DNA of 64,000 nt from Candidatus Aquidulcis sp. (GTDB lineage: Bacteria > Chloroflexota > Anaerolineae > Anaerolineales > UBA4823): contig DYIZ01000007.1 in the NCBI GenBank assembly GCA_020723385.1, positions 1-64,000 of the forward strand. The letters are read 5' to 3'. Position numbers and translations under genes: made by a program. Shown piece by piece: positions 18,755-35,522 of the stretch; position 1 is the first letter of the stretch, and every line of letters starts with the position of its first letter. The notes under the pieces are model-generated. The model had not been told where the DNA came from. It searched no databases and saw only the letters and a list, made by a program, of their open reading frames with translations.

Positions 18755-21700
18755 ATGACCACAAAAACGATGCGCTATTTATCCATTCTGATTGCTCCCC
18801 TGGCGGGGTTGGTAATTCTGGGGATTGTGCTGTTCCCCGTACAGCCCGCGGGGGCCGCCCAACCGTTGGGGATAGCCGCCCCGTTGTCTGGCGACGACGC
18901 CGGGCGCGGCGGCGACTTCCTCATTTCCACCGCCGAGGATTATCAGATGTCCGCGGACATTGCCTATAATCCTGACGATGATGAATACCTGATCGTGTGG
19001 GCAGATCAGCGCGACGGCGCAACCACCTATACTGACATTTACGGCCAAATCTACTCGGCTCAGGGCTTCCCCCAGGGTGAGCCGATACCCATTGAAACTG
19101 ACGTCAACGATCAGGATTATCCTTCTGTCGCATACAATACAACCGATAACGAGTATCTGGTTGCCTGGCAAGACAAGGCAGCCTCTAATAATACCCTGAT
19201 CGCCGCACGGCGTGTCACGGCAGATGGCGTCCCGAATGCGACCAAGCTTCTCTATGGTGTGACCACCCTTTATGAACACACCATGCCAGTCCTGGTTTAC
19301 GATCCAAATGCCAACCACTATCTGCTCGTGTGGTGGAATAGCACGGATGCCAATATCGAGGGTGCTATTCTGACGCCTGATGGCCTGGCCGTTGGCGGTT
19401 TGTTGATGATTGCCAATGACGGCCAATATCCTAAGGTGGCCTACAACAGCCATACTTTTAGCTATCTTGTTATCTATTTCAGCGGCGGCGATATCTACAG
19501 CCAACCGATTGCCGGTGATGGCAGTTTGGCTGGCGCCGCTTCAATCGTCGTGGATGATCCACCCGGGCTTCATTCGTATGAGTTGGCGTTCGATTCGCAT
19601 GACCATGAATACCTGGCCGTTTGGACCGACACTCGCAACAGCGCCGAGTTGGATGTTTTTGCCCGGCGGGTGGGTGAGAACGGCAGCAGCCTGGGCAGTG
19701 TCATTACCATTGCCGATGCTCCCGAAGAGCAGTATTACCCGGTTGTGGTCTACAATCCCAATGTCAACCAATATCTGGTGGTGTGGTACGATTTTCGCAA
19801 TTCCGTCGCCAGCGGGGGCGATATTTACGGACAACGATTAAAAGGCGATGGCAGCCTGGCTGAACAGGGCAACTTTGCCATAAGCAATAGACCAGGTGTC
19901 CAGCAGAATCCGGTTGCGGCCTTCAGCACAGTTTCCAATCAATACCTGGTTGTTTGGGAAGATGGACGCGCCAGCGACTATACCTATGATCTCTACGGAC
20001 AGCGGCTGCACTGGCTGGGTATCCCGATCTCCTATGAGTTCATCGTCACGACTGCCCTCGATGTTCAGGAGGAACCCGCGATAGTGTTTAACTCGATCAC
20101 CCGGGAGTATCTCGTTGCCTGGGCTGATGACCGCGACGCAGATGGCGAGATGGATATTTGGGGCCAACGTTATACGGATGATGGCATCCCCTTGGGTGAA
20201 AATATAGCCATCCGCGTCGAGCCGGGGAACGAAACCCATCCACGCCTAGCGTTCGACATTCATCACAACACCTATCTCATCGTTTGGGATGATGAAACCG
20301 AAGGCGACATCGAGGGCTACATCCTCGCTTCCGATGGCGCCCCAATCGGCGACGCCTTCAATGTTTCGGATGGGAGCGATGTGCGCGGCTATCCAGATGT
20401 CGCTTTTGGGGATAACGCCGAAGAATATCTGGTTGTATTTCAGCTTCAGATCGGGGGACAATGGAACATTTATGGTCGTCGCGTCTCGGTTGATGGTTCG
20501 CGGCCCGGCAAGGAATTTGCCATTACGAATGCCGAAAGCGATCAGTTGTACCCGGTAGTTATCTACAACCCGGTCGAGGACGAATTTTTGGCAGCCTGGA
20601 GCGACACATCGAACGACGCCGGCGACATCTCCGCCCGCCGGGTACACCCAACCGAGACGATGTGGGACAAATTCGCCGTTTCCACCGCCGCCGACGCTCA
20701 ATCTTATCCCGCGCTGGCCTACAACGGCGCCGACAACGAATACCTGGCAGCCTGGCATGATTACCGCAACTCGGGCGCAACCGCAGCCGATGTTTACGGC
20801 CAGCGCCTGGGCAATACCGGCAGCCTGTTAGGCGGTAACTTCGCCATTTCGGCTGCCAGCGGCGACCAGCAATATCCGCACATCAGTTATATCGCCTCCA
20901 ACAATCGTTATTCAGTGCTCTGGCAGGATAATCGCAACGTTCCCACCGGATGGGATCTCTACGGCCAATGGGTGTTGGCTGATGGCAGCCTGGCTGGATT
21001 CAACCTGCCTTTCTTCAGCTACTCCGGCTGGCAAACCCGGCCCACGGGTGCGTATAATACTTTCCTTGATCAGGGCTTTACCGTTTGGCAAGATGGGCGT
21101 AATGGTGCGGCGTATAAAATCTATGGCCGCCAGGCGGTTGTTGATCTCGAACCCCCGGAGGCAGCCTTCAACTACATTCCCAGCGTCGGTGATACCAATA
21201 CCGTATTTGTTTTCAACGCTTCGCCCAGCTACGACAACGCCACCCCCTCCGGAGCGCTGATCGTGCGCTGGGATTGGGAGAGCGACGGCGTGTACGACAC
21301 CGGCCTGAGTCTCTCGAAATGGATGACGCACACTTACGACACACCAGGCGTGTACAACATCACCCTGGAAGTGCGCGACCTGGCCTGGCTGACGGATACC
21401 GTTATTCATGCAATCACCGTTCTAACACCCACGGCCAATACCCCGCCCACCGCGACGCTGACGGTCTCACCCTCACTGATTTTGGCCGGCGACGAATTGA
21501 CTTTCGACGCCACAGCTTCCACCGATGTTGAGACCCCCGTCAGCCTGCAAGCCCGCTGGGATTGGGAAGACGATGGCGTTTGGGACACAGCTTTCACCGG
21601 AGTATTGACCTCTACCCATGAATACACCGTTGCCGGGGATTATACGATCCGGGTCGAGGTCAAGGATGCGGGAGGGCTGGTCGGGTCAGCCTCTGTGAAT

Positions 21701-22015
21701 ATCACCGTTCTTCCGGGCGGGCTTGTCACCATGAAGACATCGCCTTCCGCGGCCATGCTGGTTGCAGGCCACTCGATCCAGTTTGGCGTTGTCGGCTGGG
21801 ATATATATGGCAACGAGATCGGCAACCCGCCGGTAATTTGGTCGGTTGCGGACCCGCTAGCCGGGACAATTGACGCCAACGGGCTTTTCACCGCCACACT
21901 GACCGCAGGAACGTACCCCGATGCCATCCTGGCCCAAAGCGGGGTGGTGACGTGTACCACCACGGTGGTTGTCTATTGGCCGTACCAGGTGTATTTGCCG
22001 GTGGTGGTCCGGTAG
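18755..22015 (+). CDS. Secreted repeat protein: 14 beta-propeller-like repeats, two PKD domains, Big-like domain, C-terminal VYLPVVVR
   Basis: N-terminal signal peptide; 14 repeats of (x)AYNxxxxEYLVVWxDxR...; two PKD motifs (WDWESDGVYDTG, WDWEDDGVWDTA); ends YQVYLPVVVR*. Confidence 0.85.
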   Translation: MTTKTMRYLSILIAPLAGLVILGIVLFPVQPAGAAQPLGIAAPLSGDDAGRGGDFLISTAEDYQMSADIAYNPDDDEYLIVWADQRDGATTYTDIYGQIYSAQGFPQGEPIPIETDVNDQDYPSVAYNTTDNEYLVAWQDKAASNNTLIAARRVTADGVPNATKLLYGVTTLYEHTMPVLVYDPNANHYLLVWWNSTDANIEGAILTPDGLAVGGLLMIANDGQYPKVAYNSHTFSYLVIYFSGGDIYSQPIAGDGSLAGAASIVVDDPPGLHSYELAFDSHDHEYLAVWTDTRNSAELDVFARRVGENGSSLGSVITIADAPEEQYYPVVVYNPNVNQYLVVWYDFRNSVASGGDIYGQRLKGDGSLAEQGNFAISNRPGVQQNPVAAFSTVSNQYLVVWEDGRASDYTYDLYGQRLHWLGIPISYEFIVTTALDVQEEPAIVFNSITREYLVAWADDRDADGEMDIWGQRYTDDGIPLGENIAIRVEPGNETHPRLAFDIHHNTYLIVWDDETEGDIEGYILASDGAPIGDAFNVSDGSDVRGYPDVAFGDNAEEYLVVFQLQIGGQWNIYGRRVSVDGSRPGKEFAITNAESDQLYPVVIYNPVEDEFLAAWSDTSNDAGDISARRVHPTETMWDKFAVSTAADAQSYPALAYNGADNEYLAAWHDYRNSGATAADVYGQRLGNTGSLLGGNFAISAASGDQQYPHISYIASNNRYSVLWQDNRNVPTGWDLYGQWVLADGSLAGFNLPFFSYSGWQTRPTGAYNTFLDQGFTVWQDGRNGAAYKIYGRQAVVDLEPPEAAFNYIPSVGDTNTVFVFNASPSYDNATPSGALIVRWDWESDGVYDTGLSLSKWMTHTYDTPGVYNITLEVRDLAWLTDTVIHAITVLTPTANTPPTATLTVSPSLILAGDELTFDATASTDVETPVSLQARWDWEDDGVWDTAFTGVLTSTHEYTVAGDYTIRVEVKDAGGLVGSASVNITVLPGGLVTMKTSPSAAMLVAGHSIQFGVVGWDIYGNEIGNPPVIWSVADPLAGTIDANGLFTATLTAGTYPDAILAQSGVVTCTTTVVVYWPYQVYLPVVVR

Positions 22016-22047: not shown

Positions 22048-22083
22048 AAACCGGCCTTGCGGCGAGAGTCGCAAGGCCGGTTT
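22048..22083. terminator. Bidirectional terminator-like hairpin between convergent genes
   Basis: AAACCGGCCTTGCGgcgagagtCGCAAGGCCGGTTT. Confidence 0.8.
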
Positions 22084-22106: not shown

Positions 22107-25100
22107 TCAGCCCAGCCCCACCAGCAGCCGGCCGTCTACATCTTCCAAACGGTCCACTTCGCCGCTGGCGGCGGCGCGGGCGAAAACGATGCCGGGGCGT
22201 TTCGCCCGCCGCGCCCGAGCCAGCACATTCAAGCTGGCCGGGTCGCTGCGTTTCAGCACGTCTCCCAGTATCTGGTCGTTTTGCACGTTGAGCTGGGCGA
22301 AACCCTGGCGCGCTCCGGCCACGCCGGCAACCATTTCGTCTGGCGTGAGACCTTGTGCGTAGTTACGCCGCACGACGACCGGTTTCCCGGACGCGTCGGT
22401 AGTCACGCCGCGCACGCCCACCACCATGTGCAGCGTCCGCCTGGCCCACGGGCGGGCGCGGGCGTCCAGAAGCTGCGGGCCAAGATCGAGACTGAGATAA
22501 TCCGTTGAAGCCAGGATTTGTTCGGTCAACTCATCGGTGTATGCCTCCCACTGGGCGGGGTCGTTCCCATCGGGCGGGGGGGACAGCTTCAGGCTGCCGC
22601 CGATGAACGGGCTTAGCGAAGCCCCCGATGCCTGGGCAGCCTCGTATCCGTATCGAACCAGCCGTTCCAGAGTTTCCAAAGTTGACGGGATTCCCTTTCG
22701 GCTGAGTGTCATCTCGAGGAGATCAGCTATCGCGCCTTGGGTGAGAACAGCCCCGAAAGCGGTATCCTCAATCTCGAGGATTTCTGCAATCTCCTTGCGC
22801 CCGTCCGGGTTCAGCGAGCGGTAAGCCAGCCCCCAGATGACTTCGGCAGACGGCAGGAGAGTCTTGACCAGGGAAGGATCGTGCGCTAGATGCCCGGCCA
22901 CCGAGAGCAGCTCTTTCGCCTCCTGCTGTCCGCCATCTGTCAGCGGGAGATAGAAGGCGACCTGATCGCCGTCGAAGTCGGTGTTCATCCAGCGGCATAC
23001 GACGGGGTTGAGACGGATAGCCCGGCTGGGATCTCTCACCGGGTGAAAGGCGAGCATGGCCGTGGGGGAGAGGGCTGGCGCCCGGTAGATCACCAGCCAC
23101 GAGCGGGACAGGATTTCGTCGAGTATCTGGACCGCCTGGGGGTTGTCGGGATGAGCCAGGGCTTCGCCTTTCAATTCACGAACTACCAATGGGCCAAACA
23201 GCTTCCAGCACAACTCTTCAGGGAAGCCGACTTGATCCAGATGCAGGTCCACGCCTGGCGCGGCCACCGAGCGCCCGCTGAAAAGCTGCGGTTCCTCGAA
23301 GCGCAGAACTTCTGGCGGGAGCAGCGCCTCGAAATAGGCATTCAGCGTGCTTTCCAGGCGGATCTCGGCCTCCCGCGCCAGCCGCTCGGGAACCCGGCTG
23401 GAGAGCATCCGCGCCAACCGGGCATTGGCTTCGACCAGTTGGGCGGCTTCCGGGCTGCTTTTCTCACCTTCGAGCATTCCCACTGCCGACAGCAGACGCT
23501 CGTGCAGCCAGGGGTGCGGCATTGGGCGGGCCAGTTCGAGAGTCTCCCCATTGGGTGGGGCGAACCCGAAGGTTAATTGGCCATCGGTCAGCTCGGCGTG
23601 GATTCCGGCCGCTTGCAGGCGGGAGGCCAGGTCGGTGAACATTGGCGAGGGGAAGCCGGCCTGGGCGATTTTGCCTTTGGCGGCCCGTTGGGCTAACGCA
23701 GCGGCATCTGGCCGGCGGGAAGAGCGGGTGTTCAGGGCTTCTCGCAAGTTGCTGATCGCGCCCAGATTACGCAGAGTGGTGTATTCGGGTTCACTCAAAA
23801 TTTGATCGCGGGATTGATCCACCGTGGCCCAGATTTTGTCTTTGACCAGATGGGCCAGGCGGCTCCAGTACACCCACCCGATGGCGCTGGGGCGCTCCAG
23901 CGGCGCGCCGTTTTTTCCCCGGAGGAGCGTCTCCATCCCGGTTTCCGGCAGCCCCGCCTGGATGAGCCGCTGGCGCAGCTCGTTGGGGGCGGGGGCGTGG
24001 AACGGCGGGACGATGGCGGGAGCGCCATCCAGCCGGGCAATGCGGCTCATCACGGCCTCGCGCACCTGGCCGATGTGCATGCGGGTTCGCAGGCCGGGGA
24101 AATTGTAGATCAGCTCGACGGGCGTGCCATCCGGCAGATGCGGCATTTGATCGTCGGGGAGGATGTAACTGACCACGCCCTTTGCGCCGTGCCGGTTGCT
24201 GATCTTGTCGCCCGGCTCGACCGGGAAGGGGTCGTTCATCCGGCGGGCCGCCGACTCACTGAGAATGATGCCATCCTCGGAAACGCCCGGCCCCCAGGCA
24301 ATGAAGGCTGTCAGCAGGCTGCGCCCGCACCAAAAGTCGGGAGCGTCCGGCTCGTTGCCGGTCTGCACCCAGGCTGGCTCGGGGTGGTTGGGGACGATGG
24401 CCTGGCGCATCATATTGGCGGCCATCAGCAGCCGGTTGGGATCGTTGTTTTCGAGGAAGGGCAGCATCGAGGCGGATAACCCCAGCCCGGCCTCGGGGCG
24501 CTCGTCCACCACGATCAGCCGCCCGCCGCGAATCTCGGCCCCGATGGCGACGGTGAAGATGCGTCCGATGTACGGGCCTTCGGGCGTCTCAAAAGGGCAA
24601 ACGCGCCCTTTCTCTTCGGGAGCGACCACTCTGGCGGTACCGGACAGCGCTCCCCGGGTTGGGATGATCAACCGCCGCAGGTGGGTATGCCGGCTGAGCC
24701 AGTTGGTTGTATCCAATCGTTGGGATTTGGCCTGGAGGAACTCGTTGAGCCAGCGGTCGAGGGGCAGCCAGGCGCGCAGGATCTCATTGTCCCACGCCAC
24801 ACCGTTGGAGGCCTGCCCGAGCTGATCCAGAATATGACTGAATAGCTGTTCGCCAACGCAGGCGACCTCGGCTGCATCCAGCGGATGATCGGAAACCGTG
24901 GGGATAACGATGCGTGGTTCGCCATCCAGATAGAAGATGCCAGAGTCGTCTGGGGAGGGGATCGCCGGGTAGCCGGCTTGCACCCCGCCGGACAGCTCGA
25001 TTTGGATGTGGCAGGTCTGAGGGCTATCCTCGGTGACCGAGTAACCGGCCAGCGGCAGGCGCTCGGCCAGCAGTTGGGGCAGGCGGTCGGATATGAATTG

Positions 25101-25145
25101 TTCGAATGACGCTTTGTGCCAGGGCGTCGAGGGATTGATGGTCAT
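22107..25145 (-). CDS. Single-chain minimal RNA polymerase-like protein with beta-like and beta'-like regions fused (~1012 aa)
   Basis: Beta-like: LRRLIIPTRGALSGTARVVAPEEKGRVCPFETPEGPYIG, LPFLENNDPNRLLMAANMMRQAIV, GDKISNRHGAKGVVSYILPDDQMPHLPDGTPVELIYNFPGLRTRMHIGQ, IGWVYWSRLAHLVKDKI. Beta'-like: SGRSVAAPGVDLHLDQVGFPEELCWKLF, VIYRAPALSPTAMLAFHPV...RLNPVVCRWMNTDFDGDQVAFYLPLT, VGVRGVTTDASGKPVVVRRNYAQGLTPDEMVAGVAGARQGF. ORF-track start 25250 trimmed to ATG 25145 because the extension overlaps the sigma gene. Confidence 0.88.
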   Translation of the reverse strand: MTINPSTPWHKASFEQFISDRLPQLLAERLPLAGYSVTEDSPQTCHIQIELSGGVQAGYPAIPSPDDSGIFYLDGEPRIVIPTVSDHPLDAAEVACVGEQLFSHILDQLGQASNGVAWDNEILRAWLPLDRWLNEFLQAKSQRLDTTNWLSRHTHLRRLIIPTRGALSGTARVVAPEEKGRVCPFETPEGPYIGRIFTVAIGAEIRGGRLIVVDERPEAGLGLSASMLPFLENNDPNRLLMAANMMRQAIVPNHPEPAWVQTGNEPDAPDFWCGRSLLTAFIAWGPGVSEDGIILSESAARRMNDPFPVEPGDKISNRHGAKGVVSYILPDDQMPHLPDGTPVELIYNFPGLRTRMHIGQVREAVMSRIARLDGAPAIVPPFHAPAPNELRQRLIQAGLPETGMETLLRGKNGAPLERPSAIGWVYWSRLAHLVKDKIWATVDQSRDQILSEPEYTTLRNLGAISNLREALNTRSSRRPDAAALAQRAAKGKIAQAGFPSPMFTDLASRLQAAGIHAELTDGQLTFGFAPPNGETLELARPMPHPWLHERLLSAVGMLEGEKSSPEAAQLVEANARLARMLSSRVPERLAREAEIRLESTLNAYFEALLPPEVLRFEEPQLFSGRSVAAPGVDLHLDQVGFPEELCWKLFGPLVVRELKGEALAHPDNPQAVQILDEILSRSWLVIYRAPALSPTAMLAFHPVRDPSRAIRLNPVVCRWMNTDFDGDQVAFYLPLTDGGQQEAKELLSVAGHLAHDPSLVKTLLPSAEVIWGLAYRSLNPDGRKEIAEILEIEDTAFGAVLTQGAIADLLEMTLSRKGIPSTLETLERLVRYGYEAAQASGASLSPFIGGSLKLSPPPDGNDPAQWEAYTDELTEQILASTDYLSLDLGPQLLDARARPWARRTLHMVVGVRGVTTDASGKPVVVRRNYAQGLTPDEMVAGVAGARQGFAQLNVQNDQILGDVLKRSDPASLNVLARARRAKRPGIVFARAAASGEVDRLEDVDGRLLVGLG

Positions 25146-25149
25146 TGGA

Positions 25150-25755
25150 TCACTCCTGTTCGGCCTGCAATTCACGCTTGACGTGCTCACGCGCATAGTG
25201 CAGGCGAGATTTGGCAGTTCCTTCGGGAATGCCCAGCTCGTCAGCCGCATCCCGCAGGCTCAACTCCATCTGGTGCACCAGGCGGAGTAACTCACGTTTT
25301 TCTTCGGGCAAATCCTGGATGATTTGCCGGAGCCGGGCGTTTTGCTCACTCTGTTCGATCACCGCATCCGGCCCGAGGCTGGCGGTATCCACCAGCCAGG
25401 AGGGTGAATCGAGTTGCTCGCCTTCGCCGGTGAATTCTTCTGGCGTCTCCAGTGGTTGTTCTGGCCGCCGTTTGCGGGTGCGCAAGTGGTTGAGGGCCAG
25501 GTTGGCGGCGATGCGGAACAACCAGGCTTTCACGGCTCCCTGCCCATTCCACTGCCCGGCGCGTGTCCAGACCCGCAGGAAAGTTTCTTGCAGCAGATCA
25601 TCGGCGGCAGCCTCATCGCGTACGAAGTGGGTGAGGTAGCGGCGGATGGATGCCTCGTAGCGCTCGAAGAACAGCTCGAAAGCATAAGCCTGCTGCGCCT
25701 GGATGTGTTCTATCAGCTCGTGGTCGGGTAGGGGATCGGTCAATTTCGGCTCCAC
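25150..25755 (-). CDS. ECF-type RNA polymerase sigma factor
   Basis: Region 2 FFERYEASIRRYLTHFVRDEAAADDLLQETFLRVWTRAGQW...KAWLFRIAANLALNHLR; region 4 LPEEKRELLRLVHQMELSLRDAADELGIPEGTAKSRLHYAREHVKREL. Confidence 0.92.
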   Translation of the reverse strand: MEPKLTDPLPDHELIEHIQAQQAYAFELFFERYEASIRRYLTHFVRDEAAADDLLQETFLRVWTRAGQWNGQGAVKAWLFRIAANLALNHLRTRKRRPEQPLETPEEFTGEGEQLDSPSWLVDTASLGPDAVIEQSEQNARLRQIIQDLPEEKRELLRLVHQMELSLRDAADELGIPEGTAKSRLHYAREHVKRELQAEQE

Positions 25756-25894
25756 TCTCTAAGACACCGCACAGAGGGGGATGGTTCAATTATTGCCTGA
25801 CTGAACAGAGCGGAGGTTTTCACAGGCCGAAGCATATCACTATTTTTCTCGGGAAAGTCTTTGCATTCTTGCGTCTTTGGGTTAGACTCGGTGC

Positions 25895-31438: not shown

Positions 31439-31518
31439 CCATTTGCCAATGACCCCATTTGCTCAATCCCATTTTTCTAAGTCCAAACAATCAAATCTCG
31501 ACTCGAAAGGATATTTCT

Positions 31519-33438
31519 ATGAATACCAAAAGCGCAATCGCTCCAAAAACCATTCGTCTGGTTTTCGGCCTGATTATTTTACTGGCTTTATTGTCGCCGA
31601 TGCCCGGCTCGATGCGAGTAGCGAAGGCCAGCGGGCCTTACGTGGTTAACATGGGCTACGATGGCCCGGACTCGGATCTCGGCGATGGCATCTGCTACGA
31701 TGGGGTTGGGGGCTGCACACTGCGCGCGGCTATCCAGCAGGCTTCTGCTGACGGCGCAGCAACCACCATCACTTTCGATAGCAGCCTGGCCGGGACAACG
31801 ATTCCTTTATCCGGCAGCTATGGCATGATCGTTTGGGCTGGTTCCAATATCACTGTGGATGGCGGAAGCCAGAATATTACGATCAGCGGCGAATTTATGA
31901 ATGCCGGGCAAAACATGTTCCAAATCCAGGGTAATGACAATACCCTTACCAACCTTACGCTAAAAAACTCGCGCTGGGATGGCATTCAGGTTGGCGATTT
32001 TGCCGGGGTCGGTTATGGAAACCGTAACACGATTTCCAATTTGAAAATGACGGGCCATCTTGCAGCAGCAATCTATGTCTACGGTGGGGCGAATAGCGGT
32101 GGTCAAGACAACGTCATCGCTACCAGTGTGATTGGTGCGAGTTCCAATTTAGTGACATCCTGTATCAGCGGTGAAGGTAATGGTTATGATGGCGTTAGAA
32201 TCGAGACCTATGCTCATCGAACGATTGTCAATGGCAACCGCATCGTCTGCAACGGGAATTTTGGAGTCAATGTCTACGGGCCGAGCGGTTCTTCTGAGAA
32301 TGTCCAAATAACCTATAACGATATCGGCGGTTACGGCATCAATGACATGGGGAATGCCTGGGACGGCATCAACGTTGCTGCTACCAATAACACTTTGATT
32401 CACGGTAATGTAATCGTCGGTAATGGTTATGATGGCATTTGGGTGAACAATTCCCAAAACACAACCATGACATTTAATGCCATCGGCGTGAACAGCGGAG
32501 GTGTGTCAGCGGTACCTAATGATCTATGCGGCATAGGTTTGACGGACGCCGCTCATGATAATACGATTGGCGGTTCAGGCGTTGGTGACAAGAATTACAT
32601 CAGCGGCAATGGCGACTCGGGTGTGTGCATCGAAGGCGGCTCGCACGACAACCTGGTCGAAGGCAATCTCATCGGTTTGAACGGCGCCGGTACAACAGCC
32701 ATCCCGAATGGTCAAACGGGGGTGGCAGTGCGGGCATCTGATAATAATTACATTGGTACCTCAATGGGTGGGGTAACGCAATATATCTCCGGCAATACTC
32801 TCGCTGGAATCTATGTCGAGAACTCGAGTGGTACGTTTATTGGTCAGACAAACCGGGTTGGAGTTGCCAGCGATAATGTGACGCCAATAGGAAATGGGCA
32901 GGAAGGTATCCTGTTAAACGGCGCGGTCAACACGAGCGTTTTCCCATGGATCATTGCACACAATGGCGGCGCAGGTGTTGCTGTGGTTGGCGATGCTGCC
33001 CTGGGTAACAAGATTACCATCGTTGATGATGTTCACGGTAACGGCGGCTTGCCGGTTGACCTGGGCAATGATGGGCATACCGCCAACGGCGCACATACCC
33101 CGCCCGGGCCAAATAACTGGCTCGCTTACCCGGTTATTACCGGCGGCGCAGGCAGTAATGTTACCGGAACAGCATGTAATGACTGCCTGATAATTATTTA
33201 CCAGGCATCAGGAAATCCCACGGCGGCCGGGGGAGGCGGGATATACCTCATGGAAGTGACTGCCAATGGGTCGGGCGACTGGTCTGCCGTTTTGCCGGGC
33301 GGTGTGACGGCCTCACAAGTTACCGTGGCGGCCTGCGAAGCGCCATGCTCGACGATTGGCAACACATCCGAAATGAGTCCGATGTATAACAGCGGCGGGG
33401 GCGGTTATAAAATCTATCTGCCGATTGTCAAGCGGTAG
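31519..33438 (+). CDS. Secreted CSLREA-like parallel beta-helix protein with C-terminal IYLPIVKR
   Basis: Signal peptide MNTKSAIAPKTIRLVFGLIILLALLSP; DGICYDGVGGCTLRAAIQQAS; beta-helix repeats (NTISNL, YISGNGDSGVCIEGGSHDNLVEGNLIG); ends YKIYLPIVKR*. Confidence 0.85.
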   Translation: MNTKSAIAPKTIRLVFGLIILLALLSPMPGSMRVAKASGPYVVNMGYDGPDSDLGDGICYDGVGGCTLRAAIQQASADGAATTITFDSSLAGTTIPLSGSYGMIVWAGSNITVDGGSQNITISGEFMNAGQNMFQIQGNDNTLTNLTLKNSRWDGIQVGDFAGVGYGNRNTISNLKMTGHLAAAIYVYGGANSGGQDNVIATSVIGASSNLVTSCISGEGNGYDGVRIETYAHRTIVNGNRIVCNGNFGVNVYGPSGSSENVQITYNDIGGYGINDMGNAWDGINVAATNNTLIHGNVIVGNGYDGIWVNNSQNTTMTFNAIGVNSGGVSAVPNDLCGIGLTDAAHDNTIGGSGVGDKNYISGNGDSGVCIEGGSHDNLVEGNLIGLNGAGTTAIPNGQTGVAVRASDNNYIGTSMGGVTQYISGNTLAGIYVENSSGTFIGQTNRVGVASDNVTPIGNGQEGILLNGAVNTSVFPWIIAHNGGAGVAVVGDAALGNKITIVDDVHGNGGLPVDLGNDGHTANGAHTPPGPNNWLAYPVITGGAGSNVTGTACNDCLIIIYQASGNPTAAGGGGIYLMEVTANGSGDWSAVLPGGVTASQVTVAACEAPCSTIGNTSEMSPMYNSGGGGYKIYLPIVKR

Positions 33439-33623: not shown

Positions 33624-35522
33624 ATGGCAGCCAATCATAACCTCATTCGTTTGATCGTTCGCTCGATGATTGTTGTTGCATTGGTCTTGATCGCGCCTGG
33701 GGTGAATGTATCCCAGGTGGCTTATGCGGATGCATCGTTCGTGGTCAACTCCACGGATGACAGCGTCTCCTCCGGCTCAGCCAATGGGGTTTGTGACAAC
33801 GGGAGCGGCGTCTGCACCCTGCGGGAGGCTGTCAAAGAGGCCAACGCTGCCTCGGGCAATAAGACGATCACCTTTAGCCTGGGAACGGCGACGATTACCC
33901 TGACCCAGGGGATGCTGGTGATCTCCGCGGATAACATCACCCTCGACGGCGGCGCGCTTTCTACGATCACCCTCAGCGGAGCAGGGCTGGCAGATGGTAC
34001 CAGCATCTTACGCGTGCAGGGGGGGAACAATCAGATCCTGAACCTGACGGTGCGCGCATCCAAATGGAATGGCATCCAGGTGGGGGACTTCGCTGGCGTC
34101 GGCAGCGGCAACTACAATCTCGTCTCGAACGTTGCCGTCATTGGCAGTGTCGCAGCCGGGATATACGTTCACGGCAGTGCAGAGAGCGGCGGCAACGGGA
34201 ATTCGATCAGCGGATCTGTCATTGGCGCTCCTAACTGGTCGGCTAATATGTGCGTCAGTTGGGCCAGCAATGGTCTGGATGGCGTTTACATTGACGGCGG
34301 GGCAGATGATACGCTGATCTCAGGCAGCCGCGTGGTGTGCAGCGGCGGCAACGGGATATACATTGATGGCGGCGCGAGCGGTACGAATCTGCGCACCATC
34401 ATCGCGACCAGCGACATCGGCACGAACAACATGGGGATGATGCATAATTTCCTTTCGGGCATCTTCGACAGGCTGAACACCGGAACCGTTATCCATGACA
34501 ATCGCATTGGCGGGAATCTATATTCCGGGATAAATCTGTACGGTTCCAGCCAGACGGAAATCTACGGCAATACGATAGGCGTCACCGAGAACTCTGGGTA
34601 TGTCATACCCAATGGAACTGAGGGCATTCTGGTCTCCGACGCATCTCACGATGTCGCCGTTGGCAGCGCCACGGATCCCAGTTACCGCAATATCATCAGC
34701 GGGAACACCGGGAGCGGCGTATCCATCGAAAGTGGATCCTATAATATTTTCTTGAATGGAAATTTGCTTGGATTGCACAGCAACGGCACTGCACTCATTC
34801 CCAACCATCTGGCTGGGGTGGCGGTTTTCGACTCATCGGCTGTCGTTCTGAGCGCTATTGATGCCACGACCCAACAGTTCATCTCTGGTAATACCCGAGA
34901 GGGGGTCTACGTGCAAAATTCGAGCGCCGTCTCGATTTACTACAATACCTACATCGGGGTCGCAGCAGATACGGTCACTGCCAAAGGCAACGGCCGGGAG
35001 GGTATCCTGCTGGTGGATTCGACATTATCCAGCATAACCTCTGCCAAAGTTGACTACAACGGGCTGGCTGGCATTGCTGTTACGGGAAACACATCGAGCG
35101 GCAATTATATTCTGCCCTACGAAGTACGCTCGAATGGCGGCCTGCCGCTCGATTTGGGCAACGATGGGCACACACCCAATGACAGCGGCGACGGGGATAC
35201 GGGGCCAAATGGGCTTTTGAATTACCCCGTGATTACCACCGCCAATGGCAGCAACATCGGCGGGACAGTCTGCGCCAGTTGTACCGTTTGGATCTACGAA
35301 GCGTTCGGCAACCCGGCAGGTAATGGAGGCGGGGGGGCATATTTGACAAATACATCTGCCGATCCCTCGGGTAATTGGAATGCGGCCCTGCCAGGTGGAT
35401 TGACTGCTGCCGATGTGACTCTGATCGCTCAAGGCGGCGGCCCAAATAACGTTTCTGAGATGAGTCCCATTTACGTCGCTGGCGGCGGGCATCGGGTTTA
35501 TTTGCCTGTCGTCAGGCGGTAG
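33624..35522 (+). CDS. Secreted CSLREA-like parallel beta-helix protein (paralogue) with C-terminal VYLPVVRR
   Basis: NGVCDNGSGVCTLREAVKEANAASGNKTITF; beta-helix repeats; ends HRVYLPVVRR*. Confidence 0.87.
   Translation: MAANHNLIRLIVRSMIVVALVLIAPGVNVSQVAYADASFVVNSTDDSVSSGSANGVCDNGSGVCTLREAVKEANAASGNKTITFSLGTATITLTQGMLVISADNITLDGGALSTITLSGAGLADGTSILRVQGGNNQILNLTVRASKWNGIQVGDFAGVGSGNYNLVSNVAVIGSVAAGIYVHGSAESGGNGNSISGSVIGAPNWSANMCVSWASNGLDGVYIDGGADDTLISGSRVVCSGGNGIYIDGGASGTNLRTIIATSDIGTNNMGMMHNFLSGIFDRLNTGTVIHDNRIGGNLYSGINLYGSSQTEIYGNTIGVTENSGYVIPNGTEGILVSDASHDVAVGSATDPSYRNIISGNTGSGVSIESGSYNIFLNGNLLGLHSNGTALIPNHLAGVAVFDSSAVVLSAIDATTQQFISGNTREGVYVQNSSAVSIYYNTYIGVAADTVTAKGNGREGILLVDSTLSSITSAKVDYNGLAGIAVTGNTSSGNYILPYEVRSNGGLPLDLGNDGHTPNDSGDGDTGPNGLLNYPVITTANGSNIGGTVCASCTVWIYEAFGNPAGNGGGGAYLTNTSADPSGNWNAALPGGLTAADVTLIAQGGGPNNVSEMSPIYVAGGGHRVYLPVVRR

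Follow-up and report, generated by a model that had tools for sequence, protein, structure and literature searches.

Bacteria are assumed to transcribe their chromosomes with a single core enzyme, RNA polymerase (RNAP), whose RpoB (beta) and RpoC (beta') subunits amount to about 2,700 amino acids (aa) in two chains. Several compact enzymes of a comparable kind have been described. YonO of the Bacillus phage SPbeta is a proven processive RNAP in which a single chain forms both barrels and no trigger loop can be detected (PMC5467207), the K2ORF6p/K2ORF7p RNAP of yeast linear plasmids (virus-like elements) is a reduced beta-beta' fusion (PMC6211774), and gp64/gp96 of phage P23-45 and gp66 of the crAss-like phage phi14:2 are DNA-dependent RNAPs made of a single two-barrel subunit that includes a bridge helix (PMC10770324). 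In the literature examined, a dedicated extracytoplasmic function (ECF) sigma factor has been reported for none of these enzymes. The locus analyzed here lies in the first 64,000 nucleotides (nt) of contig DYIZ01000007.1 from Candidatus Aquidulcis sp. (Chloroflexota; assembly GCA_020723385.1), a stretch referred to as the window. It consists of a compact single-chain beta-beta' RNAP homologue of 1012 aa, encoded on the minus strand at positions 22107-25145, together with an ECF sigma factor gene and a conserved promoter directly upstream of it; this unit is called the cassette. Sequence comparison and structural modeling indicate that the locus is probably a minimal transcription machine of its own, in which a dedicated sigma factor and core drive the operon that encodes them.

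Compared with canonical RpoB/RpoC and their ECF sigma factors of the RpoE/SigH/SigW type, the cassette is alike in its fork, barrels, clamp helices, bridge helix and catalytic lysines and aspartates, in sigma regions 2 and 4, and in an ECF-type -35/-10 promoter. It differs in that the polymerase is one chain, that the lobe, flap, zinc domain, trigger loop and jaw are undetectable, that it coexists with the host rpoB and rpoC, and that sigma, core and promoter travel as a unit. With YonO it shares the single chain, the two barrels and an undetectable trigger loop; however, long RpoB/RpoC blocks are retained in the compact family and absent from YonO, and the compact family is paired with an ECF sigma factor, whereas no sigma partner has been reported for YonO. 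Membership in the YonO group was considered and rejected, the similarity beyond the DGD stretch being insignificant (hmmsearch E 0.087, hhalign E 0.26). The K2ORF6p/K2ORF7p enzyme is likewise a reduced fusion with the same beta-beta' order, but its beta' C-terminus is supplied by a second, small subunit, and it relies on a viral-type capping enzyme and helicase, in contrast to the ECF sigma factor and bacterial promoter of the compact RNAP. By their published descriptions, the yeast plasmid enzyme and the P23-45 and phi14:2 RNAPs are set apart from the compact family, which differs from the latter two in being chromosomal and in having a sigma factor. The P23-45 and phi14:2 enzymes were not among the best 50 Foldseek matches of the compact RNAP model, and carriage by phage genomes, a trait of these enzymes, was not encountered in the compact family, four carriers of which lie on long chromosomal contigs.

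A description of the compact RNAP family was not found in the open-access literature (subscription papers and most preprints lay outside the search), and neither this literature nor the family libraries searched held an already characterized enzyme class into which it falls. A preliminary description of this DNA had proposed a compact single-chain two-barrel enzyme, unlike the full-length beta-beta' fusions of Helicobacter and Wolbachia. The present comparisons support such an enzyme, distinct from these fusions and also from YonO. Within the reach of this search, the compact family and its constant sigma-RNAP-promoter unit appear to be new.

Architecture of the Compact RNA Polymerase

The previously noted open reading frame (ORF) was recovered at the same coordinates. 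Its ATG start at 25145 is supported by relatives, and the ORF listing also includes a longer frame from an upstream ATG (22107-25250, 1047 aa). Pfam matches were obtained to the C-terminal part of Rpb2_6 (5e-35), Rpb1_2 (1.7e-18) and Rpb2_3 (4e-11), and a profile built from 24 relatives matched Escherichia coli beta (4.5e-50) followed by beta' (3.3e-35), which bears out the earlier reading of beta blocks preceding beta' blocks within one chain. Both double-psi barrel blocks carry the catalytic residues of canonical RpoB and RpoC: the beta lysines correspond to K314 and K322, eight residues apart (nt 24206-24180), and the beta' DxDxD triad to D723/D725/D727 within an N-T-DFDGD stretch that starts near nt 22985, the motifs being found at the places claimed for them. 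The AlphaFold2 model has a mean predicted local distance difference test score (pLDDT) of 92 and a predicted template modeling score (pTM) of 0.88. When it was searched against the PDB with Foldseek, RpoB chains were the best matches and RpoC chains were also present. The confidence of the model and the resemblance to structures of both subunits are consistent with two barrels enclosing a single active site. In canonical enzymes, the beta' clamp helices are the binding site of sigma region 2, and a counterpart of these helices is present in the compact chain.

Profile alignment with the E. coli subunits gave no counterpart in the compact RNAP for the beta lobe (about residues 147-441), the beta flap (842-1056, with the gap directly before the beta barrel region), the beta' N-terminal zinc region, or beta' beyond about residue 840, trigger loop included. 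The flap is the seat of sigma region 4 in the usual holoenzyme. Among the 27 members of a first genome scan, the Pfam domains Rpb2_1, Rpb2_2, Rpb2_45, Rpb1_1, Rpb1_3, Rpb1_4 and Rpb1_5 had no match and Rpb2_7 matched a single one (E 0.004); the host's own subunits and those of E. coli do match the absent domains. The NCBIfam rpoB and rpoC models match the compact RNAP far below their cut-offs. In the AlphaFold2 model, the chain stops 46 residues past the bridge helix, with short helices there and no trigger loop. A conserved motif in the last 30 residues may be the counterpart of the beta' C-terminus (E. coli about 1330-1354), although the comparison was not significant (0.12) and the resemblance is only suggestive.

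The active-site segments are among the best conserved parts of the protein. The family alignment comprises 62 distinct rows, 55 of them near-full-length; 46 of these 55 members retain the complete catalytic set of five residues (K, K, D, D, D), and the last two aspartates are unbroken in all 59 readable rows.

Associated Sigma Factor and Coexistence with the Host Enzyme

The sigma gene ends 4 nt from the RNAP start codon in the window. Its product matches Sigma70_r2 (2.3e-17) and Sigma70_r4_2 (1e-10) in Pfam, and the presence of regions 2 and 4 without region 3 corresponds to the ECF architecture. Each of the 27 first-set loci has a same-strand ECF sigma ORF upstream of the compact RNAP; in 13 of these loci, the two genes overlap by 1-4 nt at the RNAP start. 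The same pairing was observed in all later loci whose upstream sequence was readable. In most Poribacteria (L044, L045, L046, L047, L050, L057), sigma and RNAP are separated by 73-324 nt instead of showing the usual overlap.

Evolutionary distances of the sigma factor and the RNAP are strongly correlated (Mantel r 0.93; 0.87 without close relatives). Because the shared descent of a linked pair is sufficient to produce such a correlation, it indicates that the pair stays together, not that the proteins are in contact. Against a profile of their own, cassette sigma factors score 244-320 bits, including three from genomes outside the profile, whereas all other ECF sigma factors in 12 genomes score at most 130 bits. 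Six sampled genomes without the compact RNAP contain no cassette sigma factor, their best sigma scoring no higher than 130 bits.

The sigma gene is the only constant neighbour. No outer neighbour is common across loci except in four syntenic Poribacteria, and the earlier remark that the polymerase stands next to housekeeping genes proved uninformative, the surroundings differing in every locus outside this closely related group. No conventional anti-sigma gene is common to the loci, the RNAP itself occupying that partner position. Shared defence or stress neighbours were also sought and not found, the only common flanks being those of the four syntenic Poribacteria.

Separate canonical subunit genes, named as a check in the preliminary description, are encoded elsewhere in the same assembly as full-length rpoC (contig C42, 1451-aa frame) and rpoB (contig C230, 1326-aa frame). 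In host genomes with the family, rpoC exceeds the curated cut-off in 12 of 12 and rpoB in 11 of 12. Several genomes of family f41 (G416, G354, G368, G409, G422, G428 and others) each have two high-scoring rpoB-type matches, and G416 and G354 have a second rpoC as well.

Cassette Promoter

The pattern [TC]GAAC-N15/16-GTGTC was found upstream of the sigma gene in all 27 upstream regions (26 loci plus the window), compared with 0.012 expected in shuffled sequences. Its spacing matches that of ordinary ECF promoters. In most copies, the element GTRGA or a near version follows about 7 bases past the -10 element, and in copies with a short leader it may double as a ribosome-binding site. The window promoter, TGAACCATCCCCCTCTGTGCGGTGTCTTAGAGAGTGGA at 25788-25751 on the minus strand, is the sole TGAAC-N15-17-GTGTC in the window. 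The full promoter including GTRGA occurs exactly once per genome in nine matching genomes, always at the cassette, and is unique in the 6.4-Mb source assembly. The cassette promoter was also recovered in members outside its definition, namely three new Poribacteria and the new Armatimonadota members. One clade (L169, L170, L174-L176, L178, L184, L185, L189) has TGAAC-N16-GCGTC or GAGTC in place of GTGTC at the -10 position, and its promoter may have changed together with its sigma factor.

When one mismatch was allowed in the full pattern, no consistent second site emerged in the genomes. A search of 12 genomes with the more permissive TGAAC-N15/16-GGTGTC returned 56 sites, of which 9 are at cassettes, versus 31 for a reversed-pattern control; weak further targets of the sigma factor are a possible source of this mild excess. 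No GGAAC-type ECF promoter was found. The coordinates of all features are given in Table 1.

Table 1. Features of the compact RNAP cassette in the window (residue numbers refer to the 1012-aa protein)
Feature	Position	Strand	Basis or remark
-35 element TGAAC	25784..25788	-	conserved cassette promoter
-10 element GTGTC, 16 nt after TGAAC	25763..25767	-	conserved cassette promoter
GTRGA element, 7 nt after -10, near presumed transcription start	25751..25755	-	conserved
ECF sigma factor gene	25150..25755	-	GTG start at 25755 or TTG at 25743; Pfam
Compact single-chain beta-beta' RNA polymerase homologue (P0007), 1012 aa	22107..25145	-	Pfam, profile comparison, AlphaFold2
Reduced N-terminal beta (protrusion) part, residues 12-81	24903..25112	-	matches E. 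coli beta 33-146, profile comparison
Beta fork / Rpb2 domain 3, residues 143-205	24531..24719	-	Pfam
Beta double-psi barrel region with K314 and K322 (C-terminal part of Rpb2 domain 6), residues 309-441	23823..24221	-	Pfam, profile comparison
Counterpart of beta' clamp helices, residues 565-608	23322..23453	-	profile comparison, AlphaFold2 model
Beta' double-psi barrel region with D723-D725-D727 (Rpb1 domain 2), residues 677-749	22899..23117	-	Pfam
Bridge helix, one 32-residue helix, residues 935-966	22248..22343	-	profile comparison, AlphaFold2 model
Terminator-like hairpin AAACCGGCCTTGCG-8-CGCAAGGCCGGTTT, 14 bp, no long U tract	22048..22083	-	directly after RNAP stop

Distribution, Selection and Origin of the Family

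About 60 distinct relatives of the compact RNAP were identified in Chloroflexota, Poribacteria, Armatimonadota, Latescibacterota and other groups, the taxon names being those of the records, mostly metagenome bins. The 27 first-set members came from records of Poribacteria, Armatimonadota, Chloroflexota, Hydrogenedentota, Latescibacterota and Gemmatimonadaceae, and the Chloroflexota members include Anaerolineae, Ktedonobacteria and the isolate Dictyobacter kobayashii. Deeper sampling revealed carriers in 11 of 85 Poribacteria genomes, 17 of 291 Armatimonadota and 22 of 64 in the phylum of genome G489; in the window's own phylum, the compact RNAP was present in 5 genomes of a 400-genome sample. 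Four carriers lie on contigs of about 5.7-6.5 Mb.

The ratio of nonsynonymous to synonymous substitution rates (dN/dS) of the compact RNAP is 0.14-0.20 in six pairs, and the enzyme is under purifying selection. For the cassette sigma factor, the ratio is 0.13-0.19 in five of six pairs and 0.455 in the sixth. In the cultured isolate D. kobayashii (NZ_BIFS01000001.1; L036:7976-11032, minus strand, identical to L058), two in-frame TGA stops interrupt the RNAP frame, whereas the cassette sigma gene and promoter appear intact.

A viral origin was considered and rejected: a search of IMG/VR with either the single protein or the alignment as query retrieved no relative, and phage and plasmid records gave canonical-type rpoB/rpoC matches but no relative of the compact family. 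Two plasmid-type records of about 16.6-16.8 kb, NZ_CP011111.1 and NC_009037.1, are annotated with rpoB (and rpoC). Phylogenetic analysis placed the compact family as a monophyletic group (support 99) outside the sampled bacterial beta subunits, but its placement inside Chloroflexota beta was not rejected by the approximately unbiased test (p-AU 0.105), so that the data allow more than one age for the family.

Cargo Genes and Window Surroundings

In one clade only (L190-L193, L197), an extra gene is inserted between sigma and RNAP, and two close relatives of this clade, L172 and L177, have no inserted gene. The cargo differs among close relatives within the clade, being either a 381-396 aa protein with a marginal tetratricopeptide repeat (TPR) match (L190:1660-2850, L192:3226-4371) or an ATP-binding cassette (ABC) exporter (L191:5008-6870, L193:1453-3246, L197:3435-5228). 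Such insertions fit an operon able to accept extra genes under a private promoter. Near the cassette, large secreted-looking proteins of the window (18755-22015, 31459-33438, 33624-35522) share a recurrent C-terminal motif of the YLPVV/YLPIV type.

Proposed Mechanism and Alternative Explanations

As proposed, the cassette would comprise a private promoter, an ECF sigma gene, a minimal single-chain RNAP and a terminator-like hairpin. Its polymerase is predicted to be a template-dependent RNAP cut down to two double-psi barrels, fork, clamp helices and bridge helix, whose two barrels presumably form an active site that synthesizes RNA with no trigger loop. The co-translated ECF sigma factor would bind the compact RNAP through region 2 at the retained clamp helices and direct it to the TGAAC-N16-GTGTC promoter ahead of the cassette operon. 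Melting would occur at GTGTC, and transcription of the cassette by its own products would constitute a positive feedback loop. In the clade with an inserted gene, this gene would be transcribed as cargo of the cassette operon. The cassette may be switched on by stress or when the host RNAP is blocked. The earlier suggestion of a second, dedicated machine working with the adjacent sigma factor is partly supported: it is the best-supported reading of the locus, and its support is of a structural and comparative kind.

Several observations weigh against this proposal. The one consistent candidate target is the cassette's own operon, and residues in the clamp-helix counterpart show only loose conservation among members. 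Although the flap is absent, the -35 and -10 elements are spaced as in ordinary ECF promoters, which would be expected if the host RNAP served as the core. Catalysis without a trigger loop may be slow or inaccurate; a two-barrel chain of this kind can nevertheless be a processive RNAP, because YonO is one (PMC5467207). Finally, 9 of the 55 near-full-length members have an altered catalytic residue, for instance K to A/T in L140/L141 or the first D to N in L046, with a loss or change of catalysis as a possible consequence. Across these nine members (L140, L141, L046, L048, L161, L162, L176, L184, L185), the changes affect a lysine (to A/T/R/M) or the first aspartate (to N/Y), and the sigma gene and promoter are kept.

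The absent flap combined with ordinary promoter spacing is the main difficulty, and it keeps alive a rather unlikely alternative, in which the ECF sigma factor and the host RNAP activate the operon and the compact RNAP acts elsewhere without sigma, for example in short or RNA-templated synthesis resembling that of QDE-1 or YonO. The largely retained catalytic residues would suit such a role, as would the precedent of YonO, which works with no sigma factor identified (PMC5467207). On this account, however, separate reasons would be needed for the strict pairing of sigma and RNAP across phyla with their correlated distances, and for the absence of a second strong sigma target in the genomes; retention of the clamp-helix counterpart also speaks against it.

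A role in sigma control appears more doubtful still, and is kept under consideration because of the nine members with altered catalytic residues. Here the compact protein would imitate the core and fill the position of an anti-sigma factor, holding the ECF sigma and freeing it on a signal, with polymerase activity secondary or lost. Gene order and promoter do resemble a classical autoregulated operon of an ECF sigma and its anti-sigma factor, and no anti-sigma gene is common to the loci. Conservation of the active-site segments and the unbroken last two aspartates argue against a mere mimic, and the genomes yielded no second strong sigma-dependent promoter in need of such control. That the compact RNAP is a functionless remnant of a polymerase from a phage or plasmid, as its patchy distribution, variable neighbourhoods and the broken copy in D. 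kobayashii might suggest, is very improbable and already disfavoured by the low dN/dS of the RNAP, a promoter in every readable copy, carriers on multi-Mb contigs, viral contigs that yielded no relative, and phage and plasmid records with canonical rpoB/rpoC matches only.

Biological Implications

Beyond the dedicated sigma-core machine proposed for this locus, the evidence leaves evenly poised the wider view that several phyla possess a second cellular transcription system, in which a minimal RNAP, a dedicated sigma factor and a genome-unique promoter operate independently of the host RNAP and can take up cargo. If true, the compact RNAP would rank with the smallest known RNA polymerases that depend on a sigma factor. 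A flapless, sigma-linked enzyme without a detectable trigger loop would offer a test of which RNAP parts sigma-directed initiation and catalysis require, a matter so far approached mainly through deletions in the large enzyme, and it might find laboratory use as an orthogonal promoter/polymerase pair. The cassette also raises the question of what a cell would gain from a private transcription line, such as survival when antibiotics or phages block the host RNAP.
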